Assembly (NCBI GenBank): GCA_025997595.1
Contig: BNUU01000006.1
Span: 8,388 to 72,387 of the forward strand
Source of the DNA: Spirochaetia bacterium
Lineage (GTDB): Bacteria; Spirochaetota; Spirochaetia; Treponematales; Breznakiellaceae
Direction: 5' to 3'
Length of the DNA: 64,000 nt
Each line of letters starts with the position of its first letter. The stretch's first letter is position 1. Under the pieces are notes generated by a model. That model was not told the DNA's origin and did no database searches. It worked only from the letters and a program-made list of their open reading frames with translations. Shown piece after piece: positions 3,889-22,483 of the stretch. A program made the position numbers and the translations under genes.

Positions 3889-5367
3889 TCATTTCTTCTG
3901 CATTAAGACCCGGTATTTTACAGCAAGGGCCTTCGCCTTCTTTACCGCAAGCCCGTTGTACTGTTCCGGTTTTTCAAACCATGAAAGGGCATCCGTAGCA
4001 TTACTAACCAGTCCCAGTTCCGCCATCTTTTTTCCGATGCGGGAAAGGACTTCACTTTCGGCGGAAAGGGCCGCAGCAAAACTGAGGTTTTCTTTTTCAG
4101 CTTTCAGCGTAATCTTTCTGATTACCTCGTGGGCATCGGAGACGCCGCTTTCCGCCAGCAGTATATATGCGGGCTCCGCCAATACACCGCCGCTGATGCC
4201 GCCGGAACTTCCGGCGGAGCTCCCCCCGGATGCGTCACCCCGCAGATTTTTCAGGAGCCGCTCACGATCCGCGCCGAGTCCTTCGATGACCCCGGACATA
4301 CGGCTTATGGCAAGGCAGAAACCGGCCACATAGTCGGCGATGAAACGCTGGCTTGCGGAATTGGAAAGGTCCCGCTGGTGTTCGCTTATCTGGTCCATGA
4401 AGAAAGTCGTCACCCGGGGCATGAATGCCTTCCAGAGGCTTTTGACGTGCTCCGAATTCCAGGGGTTTCGTTTTTGGGGCATGGTGGATGAGCCCACCTG
4501 ATCCGCCGCGAAGCCTTCCCGCAGTTCCCCGATTTCACTGCGCTGCAAATTGCGGAGGTCGTCGGCAAGGTTGGCGATGATCCCAAAGGCCACGTTGAAT
4601 TCCAACAGCAACCGCAGAAGGTATTCAGGCTCCACCAGTTGGGTGGAATGTTCCGAGGGCTCAAGGCCCAATTCGGCAAGGTAGAGCCGTTCCAGTTCTT
4701 CCGGGTCCTTGACGATCATGCTGGTGGCGTTGTAGGCCCCTACCGCCCCGGCGAGCTTTCCCTTGAGCTCTGCCACAAGGCGCTCGATCTCCAGGATCGA
4801 CTTCCCCAGCCGGGAAACGTATTCCGCAATGGCAAAGCCCACGGTGATGGGCACCGCATGCTGGCCGTGGGTGCGGCCCACCTGCGGAGTGGCCGCCTCT
4901 TTTTCGGCAAAGTTGCAGAGGAGGATTTCCAGCTTTTTGAGATGGGGCAATACCACTTCACGGGTCACCCCCCGGATGCGGTACGAAAGGCTGGTATCCA
5001 GAATGTCCACGCTGGTTGCCCCCAGGTGCACCAGGGGGGCGGTTTCCACGGGGACCTTCCGTTTGATCACATTCACCAGTGCCCGGATATTGTGCCGGGT
5101 CTTTTCTTCCTCCGCGTAAACCTCCGCCGGATCAACCGCAGCAACGGCTTTTTCAAGCTCCGCCTTGAGGGCCGGTGTCAACGTACCCCGGACACTGAGG
5201 TGGGCGATCATCAGGGCGATCTCCGCCCTGACACAGGCCGCCACCGAGGCTTCCTCGGAGATCCAGGGAACCAGGGAATCAAAGAGGGCTTCTTCAGAAA
5301 TTGAATACCGGTGATCGATGGGGGAGATATTGCGGAAAATGTTACGAGACGCTATTGAGGCTTCCAT
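3889..5367 (-). CDS. purB: Adenylosuccinate lyase
   Basis: Cleaves adenylosuccinate to AMP and fumarate, and SAICAR to AICAR, in purine synthesis. 492 aa from ATG 5367 (a GTG at 5382 would add five residues); the protein then starts MEASIASRNIFRNISPIDHR. Fumarase/aspartase-superfamily signatures are clear: GRTHGQHAVPIT with the catalytic His, and the signature loop GSSTMPQKRNP. A glycine/serine-rich stretch (DASGGSSAGSSGGISGG) interrupts the C-terminal half and is not typical of the family. It lies just upstream of guaB in the same orientation, so IMP-to-AMP and IMP-to-GMP genes are clustered. Confidence 0.94.
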   Translation of the reverse strand: MEASIASRNIFRNISPIDHRYSISEEALFDSLVPWISEEASVAACVRAEIALMIAHLSVRGTLTPALKAELEKAVAAVDPAEVYAEEEKTRHNIRALVNVIKRKVPVETAPLVHLGATSVDILDTSLSYRIRGVTREVVLPHLKKLEILLCNFAEKEAATPQVGRTHGQHAVPITVGFAIAEYVSRLGKSILEIERLVAELKGKLAGAVGAYNATSMIVKDPEELERLYLAELGLEPSEHSTQLVEPEYLLRLLLEFNVAFGIIANLADDLRNLQRSEIGELREGFAADQVGSSTMPQKRNPWNSEHVKSLWKAFMPRVTTFFMDQISEHQRDLSNSASQRFIADYVAGFCLAISRMSGVIEGLGADRERLLKNLRGDASGGSSAGSSGGISGGVLAEPAYILLAESGVSDAHEVIRKITLKAEKENLSFAAALSAESEVLSRIGKKMAELGLVSNATDALSWFEKPEQYNGLAVKKAKALAVKYRVLMQKK

Positions 5368-6291: not shown

Positions 6292-12003
<5,712 letters not shown>

Positions 12004-12219: not shown

Positions 12220-12510
12220 TTAGACGATTAATGGACTATCCACATCATAGGAAGGTTTTGCTCCCACGTGCTCTACCCGCCGTTTATAGTTAGCGCCAAG
12301 GTAATAATAGCGCAAACTATCTTTTTTATCATCTATGATCTTTTCAAGGATGTTTTTGAGCTGCACCCACTGAGCCGGATCGATGACGCATTCAAACACC
12401 GAATGCTGGACCCTCTGGCCATAGTTTGTACAGGCCTTTGCCACCTTTCGGAGTCGACCCGGGCCGCCGGGGCTGGTTACCATCACATCGTAGCTCACCA
12501 GAACCATCAT
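12220..12510 (-). CDS. cas2: CRISPR-associated endonuclease Cas2 (type I-C)
   Basis: Small dimeric ferredoxin-fold protein that bridges two Cas1 dimers in the spacer-integration complex. 96 aa from ATG 12510: MMVLVSYDVMV, with the conserved Asp after the first beta-strand (SYDV), then RRLRKVAK-type helix, QHSVFECVID and a C-terminal YYLGANYKRRVEHVG segment typical of I-C Cas2. Start chosen because GGAGGTGA lies just upstream; the longer frame to 12621 only reads the cas1 end in another frame. Four bases separate it from the cas1 stop. Last gene of the cas operon, adjacent to the leader. Confidence 0.95.
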   Translation of the reverse strand: MMVLVSYDVMVTSPGGPGRLRKVAKACTNYGQRVQHSVFECVIDPAQWVQLKNILEKIIDDKKDSLRYYYLGANYKRRVEHVGAKPSYDVDSPLIV

Positions 12511-12514
12511 AGCC

Positions 12515-13546
12515 TCACCTCCAGAAGAACGGTGGATATCCGTCAATATCACCACGGATATGACGGGCCAGCAAATTTGCCTGAATAAAAAAAAGCAGCC
12601 CAATGGGAACCGTTTCCTCAATATATGGATGAGTCACCTCATCCTGTTTGCGGTTCTGATATTCGGTGAGTACCGTTTTCCGAGTGGCATCATCCATAAT
12701 TACCGCGCCGCTTGCTGCTTTGGTGAATCCACTCTTGCCGATTTGACGCCGGTTGATAAGGGAAAGGACAAGCCGATCCGCAATAACCGGACGAAACTCC
12801 TCCATGATATCAAGAGCCAATCCCGGCCGACCGGGCCGGTCCCGGTGAAGGAATCCCACCGCAGGATCAAGGCCGACCGTTTCCAGAGCGGAACGTACAT
12901 CATGGGCAAGCAGGGTATAAATAAATGAAAGCAGGGCATTTACCTCGTCCAGGGGCGGCCGCCGGTTACGTTCGGTAAAAACAAAATCGGTTTTCTGTTC
13001 AATTATCAAATGATTGAATACTTTAAAATATTCCGCCGCCGCCTGTCCCTCAAAACCACGAACCTCATCGGTGCTCTCAGCCTTTGGAATCCGATCCATA
13101 ATCCGGTCAATCGCCGTAGAAGCAGCCTTCAATGCTGTTGCATCAACCTTGGCGGCATGATCCCGAATCGTCCGATTCATAACAATCCGGCAGTTTGCCA
13201 ATTTCCCGCTCACTACTTGTGCTGCAATCCGCCGGGTCGCCTCTTCATCATCAGCCATCCGGTACTGACGCCGTCGCAAAAGGACATTCCCGCTCACCGG
13301 TCCCCGTACCGATGCAAGAAATCGGCCGTGTTCACTTAAAAAAGACACCGCCACATCCCGCTCGGCACAGAATCCAAGCAGAAAGGGTGAACACAGCACA
13401 TTGCCGAAACATACAATACCGCCGATGGTATGAATGGGAATCTGCAACACCTTCTGCTTATCTTTCTCAATCACCACGGTTTCCCCTTCCTGATGAAGAT
13501 ACGCCCCCTGGGAACTTACATAAAGGGTATTAAGCAGCTTTCGCAT
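12515..13546 (-). CDS. cas1: CRISPR-associated integrase Cas1 (type I-C)
   Basis: Metal-dependent integrase that inserts new spacers at the leader end. 343 aa from ATG 13546 (MRKLLNTLYVSSQGAYLHQEG), preceded by GGGAG; an in-frame ATG at 13564 gives six extra residues and is less likely. The N-terminal beta-sandwich precedes the helical catalytic domain. Conserved elements visible are FEGQAAAEYF, NALLSFIYTLLAHD, the metal-ligand His in VGFLHRD and the acidic cluster LALDIMEEFRP. It sits between cas4 and cas2, the usual I-C adaptation order. Confidence 0.97.
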   Translation of the reverse strand: MRKLLNTLYVSSQGAYLHQEGETVVIEKDKQKVLQIPIHTIGGIVCFGNVLCSPFLLGFCAERDVAVSFLSEHGRFLASVRGPVSGNVLLRRRQYRMADDEEATRRIAAQVVSGKLANCRIVMNRTIRDHAAKVDATALKAASTAIDRIMDRIPKAESTDEVRGFEGQAAAEYFKVFNHLIIEQKTDFVFTERNRRPPLDEVNALLSFIYTLLAHDVRSALETVGLDPAVGFLHRDRPGRPGLALDIMEEFRPVIADRLVLSLINRRQIGKSGFTKAASGAVIMDDATRKTVLTEYQNRKQDEVTHPYIEETVPIGLLFFIQANLLARHIRGDIDGYPPFFWR

Positions 13547-13579
13547 TTCCGTTTCTCCCATCATACAAAAACGTAAATT

Positions 13580-14272
13580 TTATGATTCGTTTTTCTCGGC
13601 GGCACAGGTTTGTTTTACCAACCGCAGCTGGTTTTTGATAAAAGCATCAACCCTTTTGCTTTCTGCCCCGGTACTCCTAGGCATACAAATATCAGCAAGG
13701 GAACACCGGTCGCATTTCCGTTTATCATAATCAGCCGCCGGTGTTATACCGGCTTCTTCAATCGTTCTAATACGGTTGATCAAATCACAGGTTTTTTTCC
13801 GCAGCTCCGCATCCAGAATCACATCGCTTCGTCGGTGTTCCTGAAGATAATACAACTGCCCGGTTTCAATCACCATGCCGCGAACTTCAGTTCGAAACAT
13901 CTCCTCCAGGCACAGGGCCTGAGCGCAGATCTGCACCCGATCCACATCGTTCTCTTTTTCCCGGCCCCGTTTAAATTCAACCGGAGACACCCGCTTTACA
14001 CCGCCGTCATCAGAGAGCCATAGTTCTACCAGATCGCATTTTCCGATAAGCCCCAGCTCCAGTGACCGCACCGCCATATCGTATTCCTGCCGGAACAGGC
14101 GGCGGGATTCATGATGTTCCACATGAACCCGTTCGTGCAGTACCTTTCCTTCGGCGGTAAACTGATTTTCGGCCCATATCTGTTCCAAATGAATCAGCGC
14201 ATACTGCCGTTCACAGAACAGGACATGCTGCAATGCGGAAATCGGGATCAGGTCGTCTTCGGAGAAGGGCAT
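13580..14272 (-). CDS. cas4: CRISPR-associated exonuclease Cas4 (type I-C)
   Basis: RecB-family nuclease that trims prespacers and selects the PAM end during adaptation. 230 aa. Features in order: ISALQHVLFCERQYAL with the first cluster Cys, the PD-(D/E)XK core (KCDLVELW, then PVEFKRG supplying the catalytic Glu-x-Lys), the QICAQALCLEEM helix, and the C-terminal cluster CDRCSLADIC for a 4Fe-4S centre. It starts two bases after the stop of the YhcG-like gene, so it is translated from the same message. Spacer pairs in the array that keep a fixed PAM-proximal end agree with an active Cas4-dependent adaptation module. Confidence 0.95.
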   Translation of the reverse strand: MPFSEDDLIPISALQHVLFCERQYALIHLEQIWAENQFTAEGKVLHERVHVEHHESRRLFRQEYDMAVRSLELGLIGKCDLVELWLSDDGGVKRVSPVEFKRGREKENDVDRVQICAQALCLEEMFRTEVRGMVIETGQLYYLQEHRRSDVILDAELRKKTCDLINRIRTIEEAGITPAADYDKRKCDRCSLADICMPRSTGAESKRVDAFIKNQLRLVKQTCAAEKNES

Positions 14273-14274
14273 AA

Positions 14275-15267
14275 CTACAATTCCTGTTCCGCAAGCTGGG
14301 TCAATTCGCGCAATTTTTGCTGCAACAATTTTTTATCGGGCAATTTCGCCGTGTATTCGGCAACCAGCACCGGCGAAAGGCTGCGGCTCATTGTGAATTC
14401 AACTATTTCATCGTCCTTATCCGCGCACAAAATGATACCAACGCTCGGGTTTTCGTGCTCCTTCCTGTATTCGCGATCAAGCGCTTCAAGATAAAAATTC
14501 ATCTTACCCACATATTCCGGCTTAAAGGCGCCGATTTTCAACTCGAACGCGACCAAACACTGTAAATCACGATGATAAAAAAGCAGGTCGATATAGAAAT
14601 CCCCGCCGCCGACTTGCACCCGGTATTCCTCACCAATAAAGGTAAACCCCCGTCCAATTTCAAGCAAAAAATCTTTTAGATTTTGTGTAATCCCTTTTCT
14701 AAAGTCCGTTTCCGAATATTGACGCGGCAAATTGAGAAAATCAAGCACATAGTTATCCAGAAATTGTTCTTTGACATATTTTTCAACCGGGACCGGGGCA
14801 AGCGCTGTCGCCGATAGCATCGCACGCTCATAGTAGCTACTTTCAAGCTGACGATCCAATTCACGGGTACTATAGTGTTCTTTTATGCACAGATTTATAT
14901 AGAAATGCCGTTCCTCAGGCGTTTTCGCCCGCGCCAAAATTTTGAGGTGATTTGTCCAGCTCAATTGTGTCAGCAGTGATGACACAATCTCATCGTCCTT
15001 GTAGGTTTCATAAAACTGCCGCATCCGGTACAACCCGCGGCGGGTAAAACCCTTCAAATCCGGGTATTGCGCCGCAATAAAGCGGGCAATTTCATCGACA
15101 TACGCGTCCCCATAGCCATGCGCGGCGCTTTCCCTGCTGATATACTCGCCTACATGGTAGTAGAGCATAATCAGCTCCTCGTTCACCTTGCGGAGCGCGT
15201 TTTGCCGTGCGTCCTCAATAAGGCGGATGAGGTCGGGGAAGGTAGCGGTGGGGGGTGGATTAGTCAT
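14275..15267 (-). CDS. YhcG/DUF1016-family PD-(D/E)XK nuclease embedded in the cas operon
   Basis: 330 aa from ATG 15267 (an in-frame TTG at 15294 would overlap cas7c by 14 nt). The N-terminal DUF1016 helical domain (FPDLIRLIEDARQNALRKVN through the NHLKILARAKTPEERHFY region) is followed by the YhcG C-terminal nuclease fold: DFYIDLLFYH, LVAFELKIG and FKPEYVGKMNFYLEALD, giving Asp plus Glu-Leu-Lys active-site residues. It is not a known cas gene. Standard I-C order runs cas7c-cas4 directly; here this gene fills the gap with 13 nt on one side and 2 nt on the other. It is presumably cytoplasmic and co-expressed with the cas genes. Function in immunity is unknown. A relative sits inside the Wadjet operon at 62654-63694. 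Confidence 0.9.
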   Translation of the reverse strand: MTNPPPTATFPDLIRLIEDARQNALRKVNEELIMLYYHVGEYISRESAAHGYGDAYVDEIARFIAAQYPDLKGFTRRGLYRMRQFYETYKDDEIVSSLLTQLSWTNHLKILARAKTPEERHFYINLCIKEHYSTRELDRQLESSYYERAMLSATALAPVPVEKYVKEQFLDNYVLDFLNLPRQYSETDFRKGITQNLKDFLLEIGRGFTFIGEEYRVQVGGGDFYIDLLFYHRDLQCLVAFELKIGAFKPEYVGKMNFYLEALDREYRKEHENPSVGIILCADKDDEIVEFTMSRSLSPVLVAEYTAKLPDKKLLQQKLRELTQLAEQEL

Positions 15268-15280
15268 TTTACTTTGCAAC

Positions 15281-16159
15281 TCATGTGGAAACAACCGTTT
15301 TAAATTCCCTGAGTTCTTTCCCGTCTAAACTTATCGTATAGGCTGAAAAATCTCTGGCCGGTAGTTCCTTGTCATTATCCCTTCGTATTACCGTTACCCG
15401 GTCAAACAATTCCTGAGCGGGCTTATTTCCCATAAAAGAAGCATGCTCAAATATGATAAGCCGTTGTGCGCTCATCAGTCCCCGAGCAGCAGAACGATCA
15501 TGCTCAAACATATTCTGTAAGGCTTCCCAAAAGAGAGTCAAGTCCTCCTCTGAAAATCCCGTCTGATTTGCCAAGGGCGCGGAAATAAAACCATAGGTAC
15601 GGTAAAGCCCGTAGGGAATGGTAAACTTGCGTCCCATGGTACGGTTATCCCCGCCCTGTTTCTCAGCTTCCTTTTCCGTAGTAACTGCCATACGAGTAAT
15701 ACTATGTTCAGAAGAAATTACCGGATCAATTGAGCGGGCAAAAGTAAGCTGTATTGGTCCCCGGACCTGTCCACAATTAACCCCGGTAGACATGACCGCG
15801 CCAAATGTTCTGACATCATAAAAATTTTGACACATCCATTTTCGGGCATCTTCAGTCTTATCTCCGCCCTTCCGCTTGCCTTCATCTCCGCTTAAATCAA
15901 TACCCAACGCCTTATAAGCCCGCTCATGCTGATTATTAAGCACCGCCTTCTCTTTTACATAAATCTCATAAGGGGGCTGTTCATCCTTTACCAAGCCGAC
16001 ATAGTTACGAACCTTTCGTTTTAAACAAACGTCCGTTACCAGGCCATTTCCGGTTTCCGCATCCACCCGGGGAAGATTACCCGCATCGGGGTCTCCATTG
16101 GGGTTTCCGTCTTTGACATCAAAGAGGTAAATAAAATCATAACGCTTTTTCAGTTCCAT
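15281..16159 (-). CDS. cas7: Cascade backbone protein Cas7c (Csd2)
   Basis: RAMP-fold subunit that polymerises along the crRNA spacer in the type I-C Cascade. 292 aa, normal length. Begins [20 protein letters not shown] with the [15 protein letters not shown] motif characteristic of Csd2/Csh2 proteins; later FGAVMSTG and [11 protein letters not shown]. Start ATG 16159 has AAGGAG six bases upstream, 17 nt after the cas8c stop. Followed by the YhcG-like gene instead of cas4. Confidence 0.97.
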
Positions 16160-16176: not shown

Positions 16177-16542
16177 TTAATTTCTTTCTTCATTCTTTGC
16201 AGTAAAGAAATCCTGCCGCTGATGATAATAACCAATGGCGAATTTTCCCTGTTCGTGTAAATTCAGATGAGAAGGAAAATCATTGTAATGTCCCATGATT
16301 TCACTGATGATTTTCTCCAAATTAACACCCCGGCCCTTGTTTTCCAACTTTGCGATATGATGATTTTTAAGCCGCAACAATGTCGGAAATACCGTTACCG
16401 GTGCACCACAGGCAGCCCCATAATACCTTTCACGAATTGTTGCGTTAAGTCCCGGATTTGCTTCCTCCTGAATTTTTTCAAGGACCGCAAACAGACGTCC
16501 AAGCTGATAACCAATTGAAGATTGCTCCGTATCAAGCGCCAC
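16177..16542 (-). CDS. cas11c: Cas11c small subunit from an internal start in cas8c
   Basis: In known I-C systems the small subunit is made from an internal start within cas8c. Here an in-frame GTG at 16542 (Cas8c residue 455) is preceded by a strong AAGGAGGAG ribosome-binding site about eight bases upstream. It would give a 121-aa product starting (M)[20 protein letters not shown]. The length and the [12 protein letters not shown] segment fit Cas11c. Internal initiation is inferred from the sequence and is not otherwise proven. Confidence 0.75.
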
Positions 16543-17904
16543 TTTTATCTCCTCCTTTTTATAGTACCGGTTTAAATATGCCTTAATCAAAGCCGCCCGG
16601 ACCGGTTTTACCCGATTTTCCGTATCGCTTCGTATTCGCCGTAATACTGCCTGCAATAATGTTGCCGGATAAGGCGTCCCGTCAATAATGGAACACATAA
16701 AGTCCCCCGCGATATTGGGAGGAATATTCTCACTCTTATCCTGAACTGCCGTATTTACCAGGAGCCGCCATAGTGAGTAATATTCCGGTTCATTTTTAGG
16801 CTTAACGATTTTAAGATCCTCAAAATGCTGACGGATATGATCGGCAAATTCGCCGACTGTTCCCTGCCGCCAAAACCGAATGGAAATCCGCGCTGCGTTT
16901 GGTGCAAGGCCGAGAATATAAAATTTCTCTTTCCCGGCATCTTCAATATACGTCCCTGTCCATAGAGAATCTATCAAATTTTTGACTCGCTCCGTCCCCG
17001 CATCAGGATCATCCTTTGCCGGTTCCGAAAAAATATACGCAAAATCTTCCTCGAATTGTGTTTTATTTGCAGACCAAAAAACCGTTGAGGCGTCTCCAAT
17101 TTGTATACGCTGCCTGGAATCCCGGCTCAAAAGAGTATTGAGGGCAGTGGTATAGGCAAACATGGCGGCCTCACCCACCGGCGCATTCTTGCCCTGTTCT
17201 TTGCCGAATGAACGAAAGGCATCTTTATTAAAAGAAACGATATTTGCCCCGGAAGATTGGGCGCCCCATACTCCTTTTATGGATGTATGTAAGGTACTTA
17301 TCTGATCCTTTTCGCCGGTAATAAGACAGATACTATCATATTTTTTAGAACTATCCTTTCCGGCCAAAGCATTCTTAATTTCTTCGGTCTCACAATAGAG
17401 TTCATACTCACCATCAAAACGGAAACTGATATTGGGGTTTGTCCGGTAAATATCTTCCCATTGAGGGATCTTTTCTAACTCTGCACGCTCGACAGCAGAT
17501 AAAAAAGCCAGGAGCGCTTTTTTTCTTGGGGTATTGGGCAATTCATTCTGAATGCGTTCAATAAAGGCTTTTTTCTGATCCGGAAGCCGCGACAGTTTTC
17601 GCTTCTTGTCTTCTTCTTTCAAACCTTCAACATCCAAGATTCCGAATACATACCCGGCAACATCCCAAAGCAAATTCGCTGCAACTCCAGATGTTTTTTT
17701 AACGCCCTGCGGAACCAGAAAGGCCCTTCCCCTCTTTTTAATTCCCTCTCCTTCACGGGTATCTTCAATTTGCAGCAGGGAGCCTTTTTCATTCAAAACA
17801 ACAACAAAGGATATCTCCTTTACTTCCCAGCCATCGGGAGCAATCCCGCTCGCCGGGTCCGCCGCTTTTCTGTCGTAGTATCCCTTTAGAGCCTGTAATA
17901 TCAT
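16177..17904 (-). CDS. cas8c: Cascade large subunit Cas8c (Csd1)
   Basis: Large subunit of the I-C effector; recognises the PAM and recruits Cas3. 575 aa starting [20 protein letters not shown], which with [19 protein letters not shown] is typical of Csd1. The start overlaps the cas5c stop as ATGA, implying translational coupling and stoichiometric expression. The C-terminal ~120 residues are also encoded as a separate small subunit from an internal GTG (see cas11c). No frameshift seen. Confidence 0.96.
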
Positions 17905-18632
17905 GACCTGACCTCCAGGGACCGCCGGTCAGTATTGACCACATTATTTTTCAGCCGCGCCCGGAAAAATTCAGGTTTAGGATTGGCAGGATCATCATAG
18001 TTCATATCATAAAGCATCCAGCCCAGGTCACTATCCTCATTGATCTTTTCTGTTATCGGTGAATGCTCTTCAACCAGACGAAAATCACAGGCAAACTCCC
18101 GGCATCCCAGGTAAGGACGATGGAAACACTGTCCCTTCTTTGCCCGGCGCTCAAACATGGCCGCATATTTTGCCTCGGTCTCGTCTGATCGGACATGAGT
18201 TACCTGTTCTTCATTATCCGCCCAGTATTCACCGTATCTATGAAAATTTGCCTTTCTTTTTTCGGGAGGAATGAACTCAAACCATCCATATATACGATAC
18301 CGGACGTCCCGAAGAAAAAGTCCAGCCCGCTGTTGCCGTTGTTCTTCAATAAAAAAGCCTGTTGGACTACCATCTTTACCATCAAGCTGCGCCTGTGTCG
18401 GCTCACCCGCAATCCTTCCCACCTCATTACGCCGGACGCTTATCCAACGGATCGGATTCAATACCTCAATTTTGGTTATATGCCAGAAAATCGCCGGCTT
18501 CCACAAAATTGCGTCAAAAATCGCACGGGCTGCGGAGGGGGTCATAATGTCATAGCTGACTCGCTCTACCTTCATCTCCGGACGAGTAAATGAAGCATAA
18601 TCTCCCCATATTTCAAGACACCAATCTTTCAT
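17901..18632 (-). CDS. cas5c: Cas5c/Cas5d, crRNA-processing RNase and Cascade subunit
   Basis: In type I-C, which lacks Cas6, this protein cuts pre-crRNA at the base of the repeat hairpin and holds the 11-nt 5' handle. 243 aa starting MKDWCLEIWGDYASFTRPEM, with the family segments VERVSYDIMTPSAARAIFDAILWKPAI and the later RPYLGCREFACDF. First gene of the effector operon. ATG 18632 has AGAGG upstream and lies about 27 nt after the predicted transcription start of a good sigma70-like promoter. The gene's own promoter region is the apparent target of the crRNA-like RNA at 18712-18804. Confidence 0.96.
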   Translation of the reverse strand: MKDWCLEIWGDYASFTRPEMKVERVSYDIMTPSAARAIFDAILWKPAIFWHITKIEVLNPIRWISVRRNEVGRIAGEPTQAQLDGKDGSPTGFFIEEQRQQRAGLFLRDVRYRIYGWFEFIPPEKRKANFHRYGEYWADNEEQVTHVRSDETEAKYAAMFERRAKKGQCFHRPYLGCREFACDFRLVEEHSPITEKINEDSDLGWMLYDMNYDDPANPKPEFFRARLKNNVVNTDRRSLEVRS

Positions 18633-18646
18633 CTTTTTCCTCTACT

Positions 18647-18663
18647 TACATTCTAACATAACT
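18647..18663 (-). promoter_or_regulatory. Partial protospacer matching the mini-CRISPR spacer at the cas5c transcription start
   Basis: On the minus strand AGTTATGTTAGAATGTA follows directly after TTT and the -10 box. The first 17 bases of the mini-CRISPR spacer read AGTTAAGTGAGAATGTA. Matches are at positions 1-5, 7-8 and 10-17; mismatches are at 6 and 9. Beyond position 17 pairing is lost. The TTT occupies the PAM position; TTC is the usual I-C PAM, so this is near-canonical. Limited complementarity with a matched seed predicts binding without Cas3 cleavage. Confidence 0.8.
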
Positions 18664-18665
18664 AA

Positions 18666-18694
18666 AGTATATCATGTTCTTTGAAAACTGTCAA
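18666..18694 (-). promoter_or_regulatory. Sigma70-like promoter of the cas5c-cas8c-cas7c operon
   Basis: On the minus strand a perfect -35 TTGACA (18694-18689) is separated by 17 bases from a -10 TATACT (18671-18666). Expected transcription start is near 18659, an A. It lies between the mini-CRISPR and cas5c, so Cascade genes have a promoter independent of cas3. Confidence 0.85.
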
Positions 18695-18711
18695 GTACTT
18701 TTATGAAAAAA

Positions 18712-18804
18712 GTAAAAAATCCACGCGCCCAAAAGGGCGCGACTAAGCAAAAAACTACATTCTCACTTAACTGTTTCAATCCACAACTTCTTCCAAAGTA
18801 TGAC
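18712..18804 (-). ncRNA. One-spacer mini-CRISPR encoding a putative cas-regulating crRNA-like RNA (CreR type)
   Basis: Two diverged 32-nt repeats flank a 29-nt spacer (18744-18772). Upstream pseudo-repeat 18773-18804 keeps the last 12 bases of the array repeat (GTGGATTGAAAC on the minus strand, covering the 11-nt handle). Its stem has changed sequence but can still fold (CATA-CTT with AAG-TGTG and one bulge). Downstream pseudo-repeat 18712-18743 keeps the stem as CGCGCCC-TTTT-GGGCGCG, with a compensating G-C for A-T change relative to the array stem. It has lost the handle to a T run (TGGATTTTTT), so it can also act as a terminator. The RNA begins one base after the cas3 stop; a TATAGT box at 18815-18810 could drive it. 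The spacer pairs with the cas5c promoter. Confidence 0.82.
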
Positions 18805-18805
18805 G

Positions 18806-21034
18806 TCAGACTATAAAATTTTCTGGATCATTCGGCATTTCATCAATAAACAGACCTATCTCTTTATCGTATTCCACGGTAGTGGTCAGCGCGAATACTC
18901 CGGGAAAAATCTCTTCCAATGAACCGCGCTTTTGCATTGTGTCAAACTGATTCACATATATAGTTATAGTGTATCTTTGCAATTTACGTAACAGTTTTTT
19001 CGCAGATATCAAATTTTTTTTCAAAAGCCGGATGTACAGCTCTCCTTTTTTATACGGTACCACAACCGTCCGTTGGTTTTTATCATCAATGAGCTTAAAC
19101 AATTCGGCGGCGCTCCTAAACTGGATTCCAAGACCGGGGGTCGGCTTTAATAAATTGATGATTCCCTTAGCATCCAAAGAATTAGCCTTCCAGTATAGTT
19201 CGGTAAAATAGGGCGTAAAGACACGCTGATCAATAGGATTTTCCAGGCCCTGTTTACACATCCGCTCTGCCGTTTCCGCCGCTTTTCTGAGTGTTCCGGC
19301 GGGGGCTCTGCGGGGCGCATTGAAGACTACCACCTTACCAAGCTTCCCCTCGGCATTGAGTTTCCCTTCCCGGTTGCACCTTCCTGCGGCCTGCGCGACG
19401 GAATCCAGCCCTGCCATGGCCCGGTATACAACCGGAAAATCAATATCAACCCCCGCCTCAACCAACTGGGTACTGATAACCCGAACAGATTCTCCCCTAT
19501 GCAATTTATCTTTAATCTCGGCGATCGCGTCACTGCGGTGCTGGGCGCACATAAGCGCAGAAAGATGATATGTCCCTTTGGGCATTAGGGCATGAAGCTC
19601 CCGGCAGCTTTTCCGATCAGATACTATACAAAGCACCTGATCAACATCCGATAAATCGGCGGCTAAATCATGCCATTCCACCGGATCGGAATTTTTTTTT
19701 GGAAGGAATACTTCAACCCGGTTTAGATTTTTATACAAATCCGGAACATCCTGAATAATTTCCCTGACCGAACCTTTCGGTAAACCGGGGAATTGGGGGA
19801 AATTTTTCTGCGCTTCAAAAACAGGCTGCGTTGCGGTACAGATAACAAAACTTACCCGGTAATGTTCTGTCAAAAGTCTCATGGCTTCCAAAATGGGCGA
19901 TAAGAACTCAATGGGAACCAGTTGTGCTTCATCAAGAATTATCACACTATCCGCGATGTTATGAAGCTTCCTGCATCGGCTGGTTTTTGCGGCGAAAAGG
20001 GATTCAAAAAACTGAACTGCGGTAGTTATAATTATCGGCGCATCCCAATTTTCTGTTGCAAGCCGGGACCGCGGGGTAGAATCTTCCTCATCAAGACTTG
20101 CATGGTGTTCAACGATCTCGCCGTCACCAAAAACATTCCGGAATACATCAGCATTCTGTTCTATAATGCTTGTATAGGGGATAACATAAATTATTCGCTT
20201 CTTGTTATATTTTTCCGCATGCCTTAAAGCAAAAGCCATACTGGAGAGGGTCTTCCCACCACCGGTTGGAACGGTTAATGAGAAAAATCCCGGAACCATC
20301 TCCGCCGCTATCCGGCAATCCATCAGAACCTGTTGACGGGCTTTATATACAGTATCATCGGCTGTTTTGGAGGATCGTTTTGTTTTGGTCTCCATATAAG
20401 AAGTAAAGCGTTGCTGTAATTCAACCATAGAAAGATACCCTTTGCGTTTCTTATTCTTTTCCGAGTCCATATATTCTTCCGTATTTAAACGATCCGCATC
20501 AACAAGACAAGAAAAAAGCATTCGTATCCAAAGCGATATATCAAGTCCATTTGGATTAAATTGCCATGAAAAGCCTTTGGGACATAGCGGAGGAAGCAGG
20601 TTTTTGAATTTATCGGCTACATTCTCAGTTTTTACCTTCTGTAATCTAAATTCCAGGGCGCCAGGAGAACCACTCCAGTCAGGCAAACCTGCATGATGAC
20701 CGGCTATACAGTATGACAGGAATCGGCCCATTCCCTTACCAAATATTTCCTCCATCAGTTTTGCAGCGGGACCGGAATGTTCCAATTTTCCTTGGGATGT
20801 TACAGAAGAGGCATCCTCATCATAGCCGCTGTTATTCAGTATATACTTTTGCCATTCAGATGTACCCTTGCCGCAATCATGCCCCATACCAAGGGCATAC
20901 GCCCATTCTGACGAATCAAAGCTTTTTGCAAACTCTTTCGCTAATTCTGCGGTCCCCCGCAAATGCGATTCCAGAGACTGAGGCGTCGCCCATTCACCAT
21001 TACCCAATTCCCGTACATGCGCGATATATTCCAT
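18806..21034 (-). CDS. cas3: CRISPR-associated helicase-nuclease Cas3 (HD plus helicase)
   Basis: Degrades target DNA after Cascade binding. 742 aa. N-terminal HD nuclease with LESHLRGTAELAKEFAK, MGHDCGKGTSEWQKY and AGHHAGLPDW. Then superfamily 2 helicase: Walker A in VPTGGGKTLSSMAFALRHA, motif II as LDEAQLVP (DEAQ in place of DEAH), CTATQPVFEA, and motif VI in AQAAGRCNREGK. Starts MEYIAHVRELGNGEWATPQSL as I-C Cas3 does. ATG 21034 is three bases after the MATE gene's stop, so cas3 appears to be the last gene of a YhcH-nucleoside hydrolase-MATE operon. It is separated from the Cascade genes by the mini-CRISPR and a new promoter. Confidence 0.96.
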   Translation of the reverse strand: MEYIAHVRELGNGEWATPQSLESHLRGTAELAKEFAKSFDSSEWAYALGMGHDCGKGTSEWQKYILNNSGYDEDASSVTSQGKLEHSGPAAKLMEEIFGKGMGRFLSYCIAGHHAGLPDWSGSPGALEFRLQKVKTENVADKFKNLLPPLCPKGFSWQFNPNGLDISLWIRMLFSCLVDADRLNTEEYMDSEKNKKRKGYLSMVELQQRFTSYMETKTKRSSKTADDTVYKARQQVLMDCRIAAEMVPGFFSLTVPTGGGKTLSSMAFALRHAEKYNKKRIIYVIPYTSIIEQNADVFRNVFGDGEIVEHHASLDEEDSTPRSRLATENWDAPIIITTAVQFFESLFAAKTSRCRKLHNIADSVIILDEAQLVPIEFLSPILEAMRLLTEHYRVSFVICTATQPVFEAQKNFPQFPGLPKGSVREIIQDVPDLYKNLNRVEVFLPKKNSDPVEWHDLAADLSDVDQVLCIVSDRKSCRELHALMPKGTYHLSALMCAQHRSDAIAEIKDKLHRGESVRVISTQLVEAGVDIDFPVVYRAMAGLDSVAQAAGRCNREGKLNAEGKLGKVVVFNAPRRAPAGTLRKAAETAERMCKQGLENPIDQRVFTPYFTELYWKANSLDAKGIINLLKPTPGLGIQFRSAAELFKLIDDKNQRTVVVPYKKGELYIRLLKKNLISAKKLLRKLQRYTITIYVNQFDTMQKRGSLEEIFPGVFALTTTVEYDKEIGLFIDEMPNDPENFIV

Positions 21035-21037
21035 CCC

Positions 21038-22483
21038 TCACCCTTTGATCACCGTCTTCCACTTCCCCGAATTGTAGCGCACAAGCACTAAAAGTGATCG
21101 GAGCAGCTGATCGAGGATGAGTGCGATCCATGCGCCCCACAGGCTCCAATTAAGGACCATCACCGTAATGCCCGCAATGCCGGGGCGTACCAAAAGGACG
21201 GTAATAAAGGTGATCGCAGCAATACTGCGGGTGTCCCCCGCGCCCCGCAGGGCGCCGGCAAGGATGAACTGTGAGGACTGGAAGGGCAGCATGATGGCGA
21301 CCATGCGCAGAATACGGGAGCCCGTTTCGATGATCTGCAAACTTTCAGGATCGCGTCCCACATAGAGGGCCATGATCTGGCGGCCGAGGAAAACAAAAAT
21401 CAGGGCCAAAACAACGGAGACCGCCAGCCCGATGCGGCGGGTGCGGCTGGTGTACTGCTCGGCCATGTCGGGCCGGCGTTTCCCCAGGCTCTGGCCGGTC
21501 AGGGCGGTGGCGGATACCGCAAAGGCCTGGCCTATCATAAAGGACATGGCCTGAATGTTCATGCAGGCCATATGGGTAGCGTAAAGCATGGTCCCCAGGG
21601 AAGTTACGATCTTGGTATAGCTTATCATCCCCGTCCGCATGATGGCCTGCTCGGCCAGGGCAGGAAGGCCGATGCGGAAAATTGAATTGATGGTTTCCCG
21701 GTTGGGCCTGAAGCTGTCGGTGAACCTCAGCCTGATATAGTTTCTGCCCTTCAAAAGGGTAATCATGGCAAGGGCGAGGGCCACAAACTGCCCGATGATG
21801 GTCGCCACCGATGCGCCCATCACTTCCCAGCGGGGAAAACCGAAATTGCCGTAAATCAAAAGGTAATTGAAGATCACGTTAACTATATTGGCAACGATGT
21901 TGTAGACCATGGAGGTGCGGGAATTCCCCACACCCCTCAAAGTCGCCGTGGCGGTACTGGTCAGGGAAACGCTTAAGAGGCCGATACACTGCCATTGAAA
22001 ATAAACGGTTCCCCCCGCAAGGGAAGCGGCATCGGGGGCGCCCATGAAGCGGATAAGGTCTTCGGCAAAAATATAACCCGCCACGGAACTTGCAATGCCA
22101 AGGATAAAATTGAGGAGTAGGGCCTGGCGCAGAACCATGTTTGCCTTTTCAGGATTCCCGGCGCCCCGGTAGCGGGCAACCATGGCGGTGGCCCCCACGT
22201 TCATGGCCATGAAAAGTATCATCACCAAAAATTTCGGCTGAGTCGCAAGCCCCACGGAAGTCAGCGCCCAGGGCCCCAGCTGGCCCACCATCATGAGGTC
22301 CACCATGGACGCCAGCTGGACAAGAACCATCTCCCCCATGGAAGGGAAGGCGATCTTTACCACATCGCGGTAGAGCATTTTTGAGGTGATGCCCTCGGGA
22401 AGGGCGCGGCCATCGGACCGGACAGGTCCCGCTTCCACCCGGTCAAGGGCGGTCTCCCAGTTGGGACCTTTTTTTCCGTCCAT
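21038..22483 (-). CDS. MATE-family efflux transporter
   Basis: Cation-coupled exporter of drugs or metabolites in the inner membrane. 481 aa with about 12 hydrophobic helices. The MATE repeats are visible (FPSMGEMVLVQLASMVDLMMVGQLGPWALTSVGLATQP, and the second half LPALAEQAIMRTGM). ATG 22483 overlaps the stop of the upstream nucleoside hydrolase as TAATG; a GTG at 22492 is an alternative. Substrate cannot be told from sequence. Its stop is only three bases from cas3. Confidence 0.93.
   Translation of the reverse strand: MDGKKGPNWETALDRVEAGPVRSDGRALPEGITSKMLYRDVVKIAFPSMGEMVLVQLASMVDLMMVGQLGPWALTSVGLATQPKFLVMILFMAMNVGATAMVARYRGAGNPEKANMVLRQALLLNFILGIASSVAGYIFAEDLIRFMGAPDAASLAGGTVYFQWQCIGLLSVSLTSTATATLRGVGNSRTSMVYNIVANIVNVIFNYLLIYGNFGFPRWEVMGASVATIIGQFVALALAMITLLKGRNYIRLRFTDSFRPNRETINSIFRIGLPALAEQAIMRTGMISYTKIVTSLGTMLYATHMACMNIQAMSFMIGQAFAVSATALTGQSLGKRRPDMAEQYTSRTRRIGLAVSVVLALIFVFLGRQIMALYVGRDPESLQIIETGSRILRMVAIMLPFQSSQFILAGALRGAGDTRSIAAITFITVLLVRPGIAGITVMVLNWSLWGAWIALILDQLLRSLLVLVRYNSGKWKTVIKG

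Follow-up and report, generated by a model that had tools for sequence, protein, structure and literature searches.

A degenerate mini-CRISPR with a single spacer lies between cas3 and cas5c in a type I-C operon of a Spirochaetia bacterium, and comparison of its sequence with other loci indicates that it is very probably a CreR of type I-C, repressing its own operon through the predicted cas5c promoter. The DNA analysed, referred to here as the window, is a stretch of 64,000 nucleotides (GenBank assembly GCA_025997595.1, contig BNUU01000006.1, positions 8,388 to 72,387), numbered from its first letter. Since the spacer partly matches the predicted promoter of the system's own cas genes, the system likely turns itself down. 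The preliminary description had proposed such an autorepressor from this one locus. The proposal now finds support beyond it: 28 of 266 distinct cas5c loci, the window included, carry a solitary repeat handle with a PAM-adjacent match nearby, and the mismatches fall mostly at spacer positions 6 and 12. If the 27 other loci work alike, self-control would be a recurring feature of type I-C, which is both common and compact and has found use in genome editing. How type I-C sets its own expression is little known.

According to one review, CreR elements have been reported for types I-B, I-E and V-A (PMC13131331); a second review names type I and type V-A (PMC12737573). As the accessible text of these two papers presents them, the elements of types I-B, I-E and V-A are crRNA-like RNAs encoded by degenerate mini-CRISPRs beside cas genes, with partial complementarity to a cas promoter and predicted autorepression, and the window element shares these properties, with a predicted RNA. 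That it works like CreR is supported by the defining features that can be tested in sequence. It differs in belonging to a type I-C Cascade, with likely processing by Cas5c, and in lying between cas3 and cas5c and targeting the predicted cas5c promoter; complementarity in the type I-C elements spans about 16–17 nt, with positions 6 and 12 free. No type I-C precedent was known to the preliminary description, and no report of a type I-C CreR was found among the literature matches listed from openly readable papers. Two further kinds of RNA are comparable, as far as the available portions of the papers describe them. CreA of the CreTA module (type I-B, haloarchaea) has two degenerate repeats, or one followed by a terminator, a TTC PAM, and a seed at positions 1–5 and 7–11 with 6 and 12 dispensable; the type I-C elements are alike in all of this, whereas the target of CreA is the promoter of a toxin RNA and that of the window element is the predicted cas5c promoter (PMC8501985). 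Racr RNA anti-CRISPRs are solitary repeat-like RNAs, as in the window, but their genes are viral and they imitate the repeats of arrays, whereas the window element lies in the host cas operon and its spacer matches a site beside it (PMC10651486).

The window contains a complete type I-C operon on its minus strand, in the order cas3, gap, cas5c, cas8c, cas7, a DUF1016/YhcG-like nuclease gene, cas4, cas1, cas2 and array (Table 1). The array repeat, in crRNA sense, is GTCGCACCCTGCGCGGGTGCGTGGATTGAAAC. The nuclease gene (DUF1016_N/YhcG_C, a PDDEXK nuclease; 14275–15294, minus strand) sits between cas7 and cas4 and overlaps the end of cas7. Several spacers of the array are present twice (9529, 9799, 10366–10597, 11204, 11672, 11738), at least one pair with a base change, suggestive of duplicated array segments. 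A cas3 promoter is not evident because a co-oriented MATE transporter gene ends only a few bases before cas3 starts (21034–21038); at the closely related locus L002 the sequence 5′ of cas3 differs from that of the window. To our knowledge, type I-C systems are without Cas6, so the guide is likely processed by Cas5c. In another type I-C system, cas5 is required for pre-crRNA processing, according to the part of that study available (PMC8406640), and by analogy Cas5c is likely also the crRNA-processing enzyme at the window locus.

Table 1. Positions of the mini-CRISPR, its predicted target and the surrounding cas genes in the window
Feature	Position	Strand	Family match or remark
cas3	18806..21034	-	TIGR01587, TIGR01596
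psi-R1, first degenerate repeat	18773..18804	-	GTCATACTTTGGAAGAAGTTGTGGATTGAAAC; keeps GTGGATTGAAAC, the prospective 5′ handle of the guide RNA
Spacer, 29 nt	18744..18772	-	AGTTAAGTGAGAATGTAGTTTTTTGCTTA
psi-R2, second degenerate repeat	18712..18743	-	GTCGCGCCCTTTTGGGCGCGTGGATTTTTTAC; strong 7-bp stem; handle decayed to GATTTTTTAC
psi-R2 stem-loop, then TGGATTTTTT	18724..18741	-	terminator-like (consensus match only); may end the cas3–CreR transcript
Predicted sigma-70 promoter of cas5c, TTGACA-17-TATACT	18666..18694	-	consensus
TTT at the PAM position	18664..18666	-	
Target (protospacer)	18647..18663	-	spacer positions 1–17, 15/17 matched; spans the expected transcription start
cas5c, first gene past the target	17901..18632	-	TIGR01876
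cas8c	16177..17904	-	TIGR01863
cas7c	15281..16159	-	TIGR02589
cas4	13580..14272	-	TIGR00372
cas1c	12515..13564	-	TIGR03640
Open frame containing cas2 (match to residues 38–131)	12220..12621	-	TIGR01573
CRISPR array, canonical repeats (part examined; extends below 9000)	9026..12003	-	

Two diverged repeats flanking a 29-nt spacer had been described between cas3 and cas5c, and both repeats and spacer were recovered on the minus strand. As in CreR, the mini-CRISPR is degenerate, linked to cas genes and retains the repeat handle. A canonical CRISPR array was rejected for the element, its repeats being diverged and its spacer matching the neighbouring promoter. The stem reported for both repeats holds for psi-R2, which folds at -15.4 kcal/mol (z -3.6), and not for psi-R1, whose fold is weak (-4.3 kcal/mol, z -0.86; 42 of 200 shuffles as good). 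The psi-R2 hairpin with the Ts behind it scores as terminator-like, a consensus match only, for which shuffles average 0.4. A promoter for the CreR RNA was sought in the 250 nt 5′ of the element and none was found.

The match between spacer and promoter region was found as first described. Spacer sequence AGTTAAGTGAGAATGTA and target AGTTATGTTAGAATGTA are identical at 15 of 17 positions, with mismatches at 6 and 9 and TTT in front, and the match is lost past position 17. The TTGACA-17-TATACT promoter attributed to cas5c is likewise present; it agrees with the consensus at 11 of 12 positions, has TG before the -10 element and is the sole promoter-like site in 18560–19060, a scan that proves nothing alone because shuffles of the same stretch average 1.7 sites. 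None of 20,000 dinucleotide-shuffled spacers reached the observed score beside TTC, TTT, CTC or CTT (280 nt, both strands), and when the PAM requirement was dropped 0.09% of them equalled it. The target, with a score of 13, is the best non-self match in the window, the next non-self site scoring 8; this local score forgives position 6 and was chosen after the finding was seen, unlike the criterion used below for the signature counts, which treats all positions equally. Across the assembly (2.26 Mb, 79% complete), a search allowing up to three mismatches gave nothing beyond the target, the spacer and one site with three mismatches, and the backwards control pattern gave one site. Sharing its sense with the cas5c leader, the spacer RNA can pair with template DNA and not with cas5c mRNA. 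Limited, PAM-flanked seed complementarity to the own cas promoter, as in CreR, is thus found in the window with a TTT PAM, an additional mismatch at position 9 and a promoter recognised by consensus only. At 15 of 17 positions, with the match lost beyond them, the complementarity also stays below the length at which interference would set in, judged by thresholds taken from other systems.

Together these features suggest how the element might act. CreR RNA would probably be transcribed together with cas3, since no separate promoter was found, and would be cut by Cas5c at the repeats into a crRNA-like guide. Loaded on the locus's own Cascade, the guide would lead it to the cas5c promoter, where an R-loop over about 15 bp at -10/+1 would block RNA polymerase and thereby repress, without cleavage, the operon that encodes Cascade. 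The match would be too short for attack by Cas3: in the accessible parts of the respective studies, a type I-C system needs a 27 bp match for killing (PMC8406640) and type I-E needs more than 18 bp for interference (PMC5904413), both above the 15 pairs at the target. Canonical crRNAs, or phage anti-CRISPR proteins, could draw Cascade away and relieve the repression. If this is correct, type I-C senses its own free Cascade by means of a guide RNA, and crRNA supply together with anti-CRISPR proteins sets cas expression. Several features of the window locus count against the CreR reading, namely the mismatch at position 9, the TTT PAM, the weak stem of psi-R1, the lack of an own promoter and the absence of the element from relatives. 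Data from E. coli type I-E, where repression by promoter-bound Cascade falls strongly with six PAM-distal mismatches in the excerpt available (PMC5904413), also count against it.

The closest loci, L002 and L003, have cas5c genes 94% and 92% identical to that of the window, and in both cas3 abuts cas5c with no element between them. In the family of the window, 19 of 195 genomes, the window's included, have a match to the Cas5c family, and the 20 other loci of this family that were scanned, those from the L002 and L003 genomes among them, contain no such element. It was therefore recurrence, not conservation of this one element, that could be assessed. Viral contigs scanned with Cas5c yielded nothing, and no element was detected at eight named plasmid loci drawn from 48 matching plasmid records (Treponema saccharophilum, Parabacteroides, Nitratidesulfovibrio, Leptolinea, Brevibacillus, Zymomonas, Thermus and Acidisoma). 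Scanning 60 loci from named genomes over their whole length, which reaches as far as 5 kb upstream of cas5c if the contig is long enough, gave the window, L043, L046, L054 and L055, all near cas5c, and beyond these one weak match only, that of a repeat in the window's own array, with a GTC triplet.

The survey of cas5c loci combined these 60 loci with five genome samples: the window's family (195 genomes), the L054 family (300), the L043 class (229), the L054 class (391) and the window's phylum (392). A further sample, the L046 family (16 genomes), contributed L046 alone. All listed places in the samples were taken in, including a few matches under the family cut-off; L299, one of the 28, has such a match. 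The 299 loci reduced to 298 with a recognisable cas5c, 270 distinct places and 266 with at least 100 nt upstream. A handle-like 12-mer occurred within 900 nt upstream in 70 of the 266; of the 84 handles in all, 47 were loose ones with three mismatches, which the counts retain. To qualify, a site had to match 12 or more of spacer positions 1–16 and lie beside TTC, TTT, CTC or CTT. The resulting 28 of 266 replaces the 17 of 160 obtained earlier from a smaller set; two hits in one locus (L043, L216) were counted once, and L055 was merged with L054, the sequence around the cas5c starts being identical, and entered only the paired-change comparison and the tree.

Shuffled spacers gave a mean of 1.15 loci and a maximum of 4 in 300 rounds, against the 28 observed, and spacers compared at the same threshold with the loci of other members matched in 22 of 756 pairs; on these figures about one of the 28 may be a chance match. 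At 84 handles, at least 12, 13 and 14 of 16 positions matched in 28, 24 and 20 cases; at 872 random positions near handles the corresponding numbers were 16, 1 and 0. Qualifying sites also followed the quality of the handle. They accompanied 5 of 8 handles identical to GTGGATTGAAAC, 16 of 19 with one mismatch (21 of 27 up to this point), 7 of 10 with two and none of 47 with three. Homologous loci whose spacers vary without a local match had been named beforehand as the case that would speak against the proposal. The outcome was the opposite, the spacers forming 26 clusters among 28 loci and every one of the 28 matching a PAM-flanked site near its own cas5c; 9 of the 37 handles with up to two mismatches have none.

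The comparison of loci, which supplies the decisive evidence, also shows where the guides fail to match. Over the 28 loci the match fraction is 0.96–1.0 at positions 1–5, 0.39 at 6, 0.89–1.0 at 7–11, 0.36 at 12 and 0.86–0.96 at 13–15, and it reaches background by 18. Positions 6 and 12 take 35 of the 55 mismatches in the first 16 positions (17 loci at 6, 18 at 12); the positional p-values (9e-19) treat loci as independent, and collapsing alike spacers to 26 left the same pattern, with a mismatch at 6 in 15 and at 12 in 17. When 6 and 12 were omitted, 12 of the 37 handles had a perfect 14 of 14 beside TTC and 19 had at least 13, compared with one perfect and 10 or 11 with at least 13 for each control pair (1/7, 2/8, 3/9, 4/10, 5/11). 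In type I Cascade every sixth guide base is flipped out, in the portion of the source available (PMC5904413), and the pattern is therefore the one expected for a guide held by such a complex. It also equals the tolerance measured for type I-B CreA, which can dispense with nucleotides 6 and 12 but needs all ten others among the first twelve, according to the text at hand (PMC8501985). If the CreR reading is right, mismatch clustering at the flipped bases 6 and 12 could serve as a signature by which to search type I genomes in general for such regulators. Position 9, which is not a flipped base, is mismatched in 3 of 28 loci, the window among them, and L131 has mismatches at 6, 7 and 12. The PAMs are TTC in 23 loci and TTT in 5, placing the window in the minority; with the PAM filter removed, 20 of 30 sites with at least 13 of 16 matches had TTC and 4 had TTT. 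TTC is the PAM of a tested type I-C system, according to the part of that report available (PMC8406640). In two related pairs, L054/L055 and L130/L131, spacer and target show the same A-to-G change at position 10.

The 28 loci vary in anatomy. In 23 of the 27 others the guide RNA runs antiparallel to cas5c, and several, judged by eye, have one repeat followed by a terminator-like hairpin and no second repeat, like the one-repeat form of CreA described in the available text (PMC8501985). Target positions range from just upstream of -35, through the promoter itself, to the vicinity of the transcription and translation starts. The footprint overlaps the best predicted promoter (-45 to +20) in 22 of 28, with 9.2 expected by random placement; no promoter was found in one of the remaining loci and there was no overlap in five. 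The window, with its guide on the cas5c strand, two repeats and a target at -10/+1, is unlike most. L289, whose genome belongs to the window's class, also has its guide on the cas5c strand and a TTT PAM, with a footprint off the predicted promoter. A Cas8c gene follows cas5c on its 3′ side in all 10 loci tested from the 27, eight above the curated cut-off and two (L210 and L214) below it, both running off the end of the locus. On a cas5c tree of 262 tips, from which L174 is missing as its cas5c is too short, the distribution of the 28 marked tips takes 21 changes to explain, whereas shuffled labels took 27.0 on average and never fewer than 23; the elements are scattered over the tree with some inheritance. 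If the CreR reading is true, autorepression of this kind extends to another subtype, which suggests many origins or spreads.

Other explanations were weighed against these results. The element might be a functionless remnant of a dead array, or a spacer acquired from the own genome, its match inherited from acquisition or due to chance. Degenerate repeats, the weak psi-R1 stem and absence in relatives would suit this, yet a recent self-spacer should match over its full length, and the window match stops at 17. A relic should moreover lose matches evenly, whereas the 28 loci lose them at 6, 12 and past 17, and chance is made unlikely by the spacer shuffles, the locus survey and the control positions; we regard a remnant as highly improbable. 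Action at the RNA level, with Cas5c cleavage or termination at psi-R2 processing the cas3–cas5c mRNA and the promoter match secondary, strikes us as extremely unlikely. The terminator-like psi-R2 and the orientation of the element in the direction of cas3–cas5c transcription are in keeping with it, and it may hold additionally. It leaves the PAM, the seed match and the 6/12 pattern unexplained, however, and the window RNA, of the same sense as the cas5c leader, cannot pair with it, while most of the other guides run opposite to cas5c.

There is very little probability that the window element is the CreA-type antitoxin of a CreTA/CrePA module, in which the target of repression is a toxin RNA or small toxin gene and not the cas genes. 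The target begins 31 nt 5′ of the cas5c start codon with no gene between, which leaves no room for a toxin gene, and each small frame found in the gap either starts 5′ of where transcription is expected to begin or is encoded on the opposite strand. A CreA at the window was rejected on these grounds: the target is no toxin promoter, and no frame fits between it and cas5c. The antitoxin reading fits some of the surveyed loci better, L046 with HicA and L043 and L154 with small hydrophobic frames, where the guides may serve a toxin gene instead of cas5c.

For type I-C CreR a bolder version can be formulated, which we consider an even call. Type I-C systems across phyla would repeatedly have evolved CreR self-repression, with selection keeping only the pairing bases (1–5, 7–11 and 13–16). 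In the window, the guide would be cut from the 3′ end of cas3 mRNA, the dose of repressor would report nuclease expression, and psi-R2 would now be a terminator parting cas3 from the cas5c promoter.

Three surveyed loci contain further frames of interest, and one locus lies outside the count. At L105, a full repeat lies about 140 nt upstream of cas5c and its spacer matches a GTC-flanked site at 18 of 22 positions (mismatches 2, 6, 12 and 17); left out of the 28 for its GTC triplet, it probably belongs to the group and was lost to the PAM filter. At L043 (around 4810–4970) and L154, frames encoding about 50 residues, each with a hydrophobic segment seen by eye, lie between target and cas5c; neither has a Pfam match, and both are possible toxins under guide control. 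At L046 (4160–4560), a mini-CRISPR with a TTC-flanked site beside it, mismatched at position 6, is followed by a HicA toxin gene (PF07927, 8.6e-15), possibly a protein toxin repressed by Cascade within a type I-C locus.
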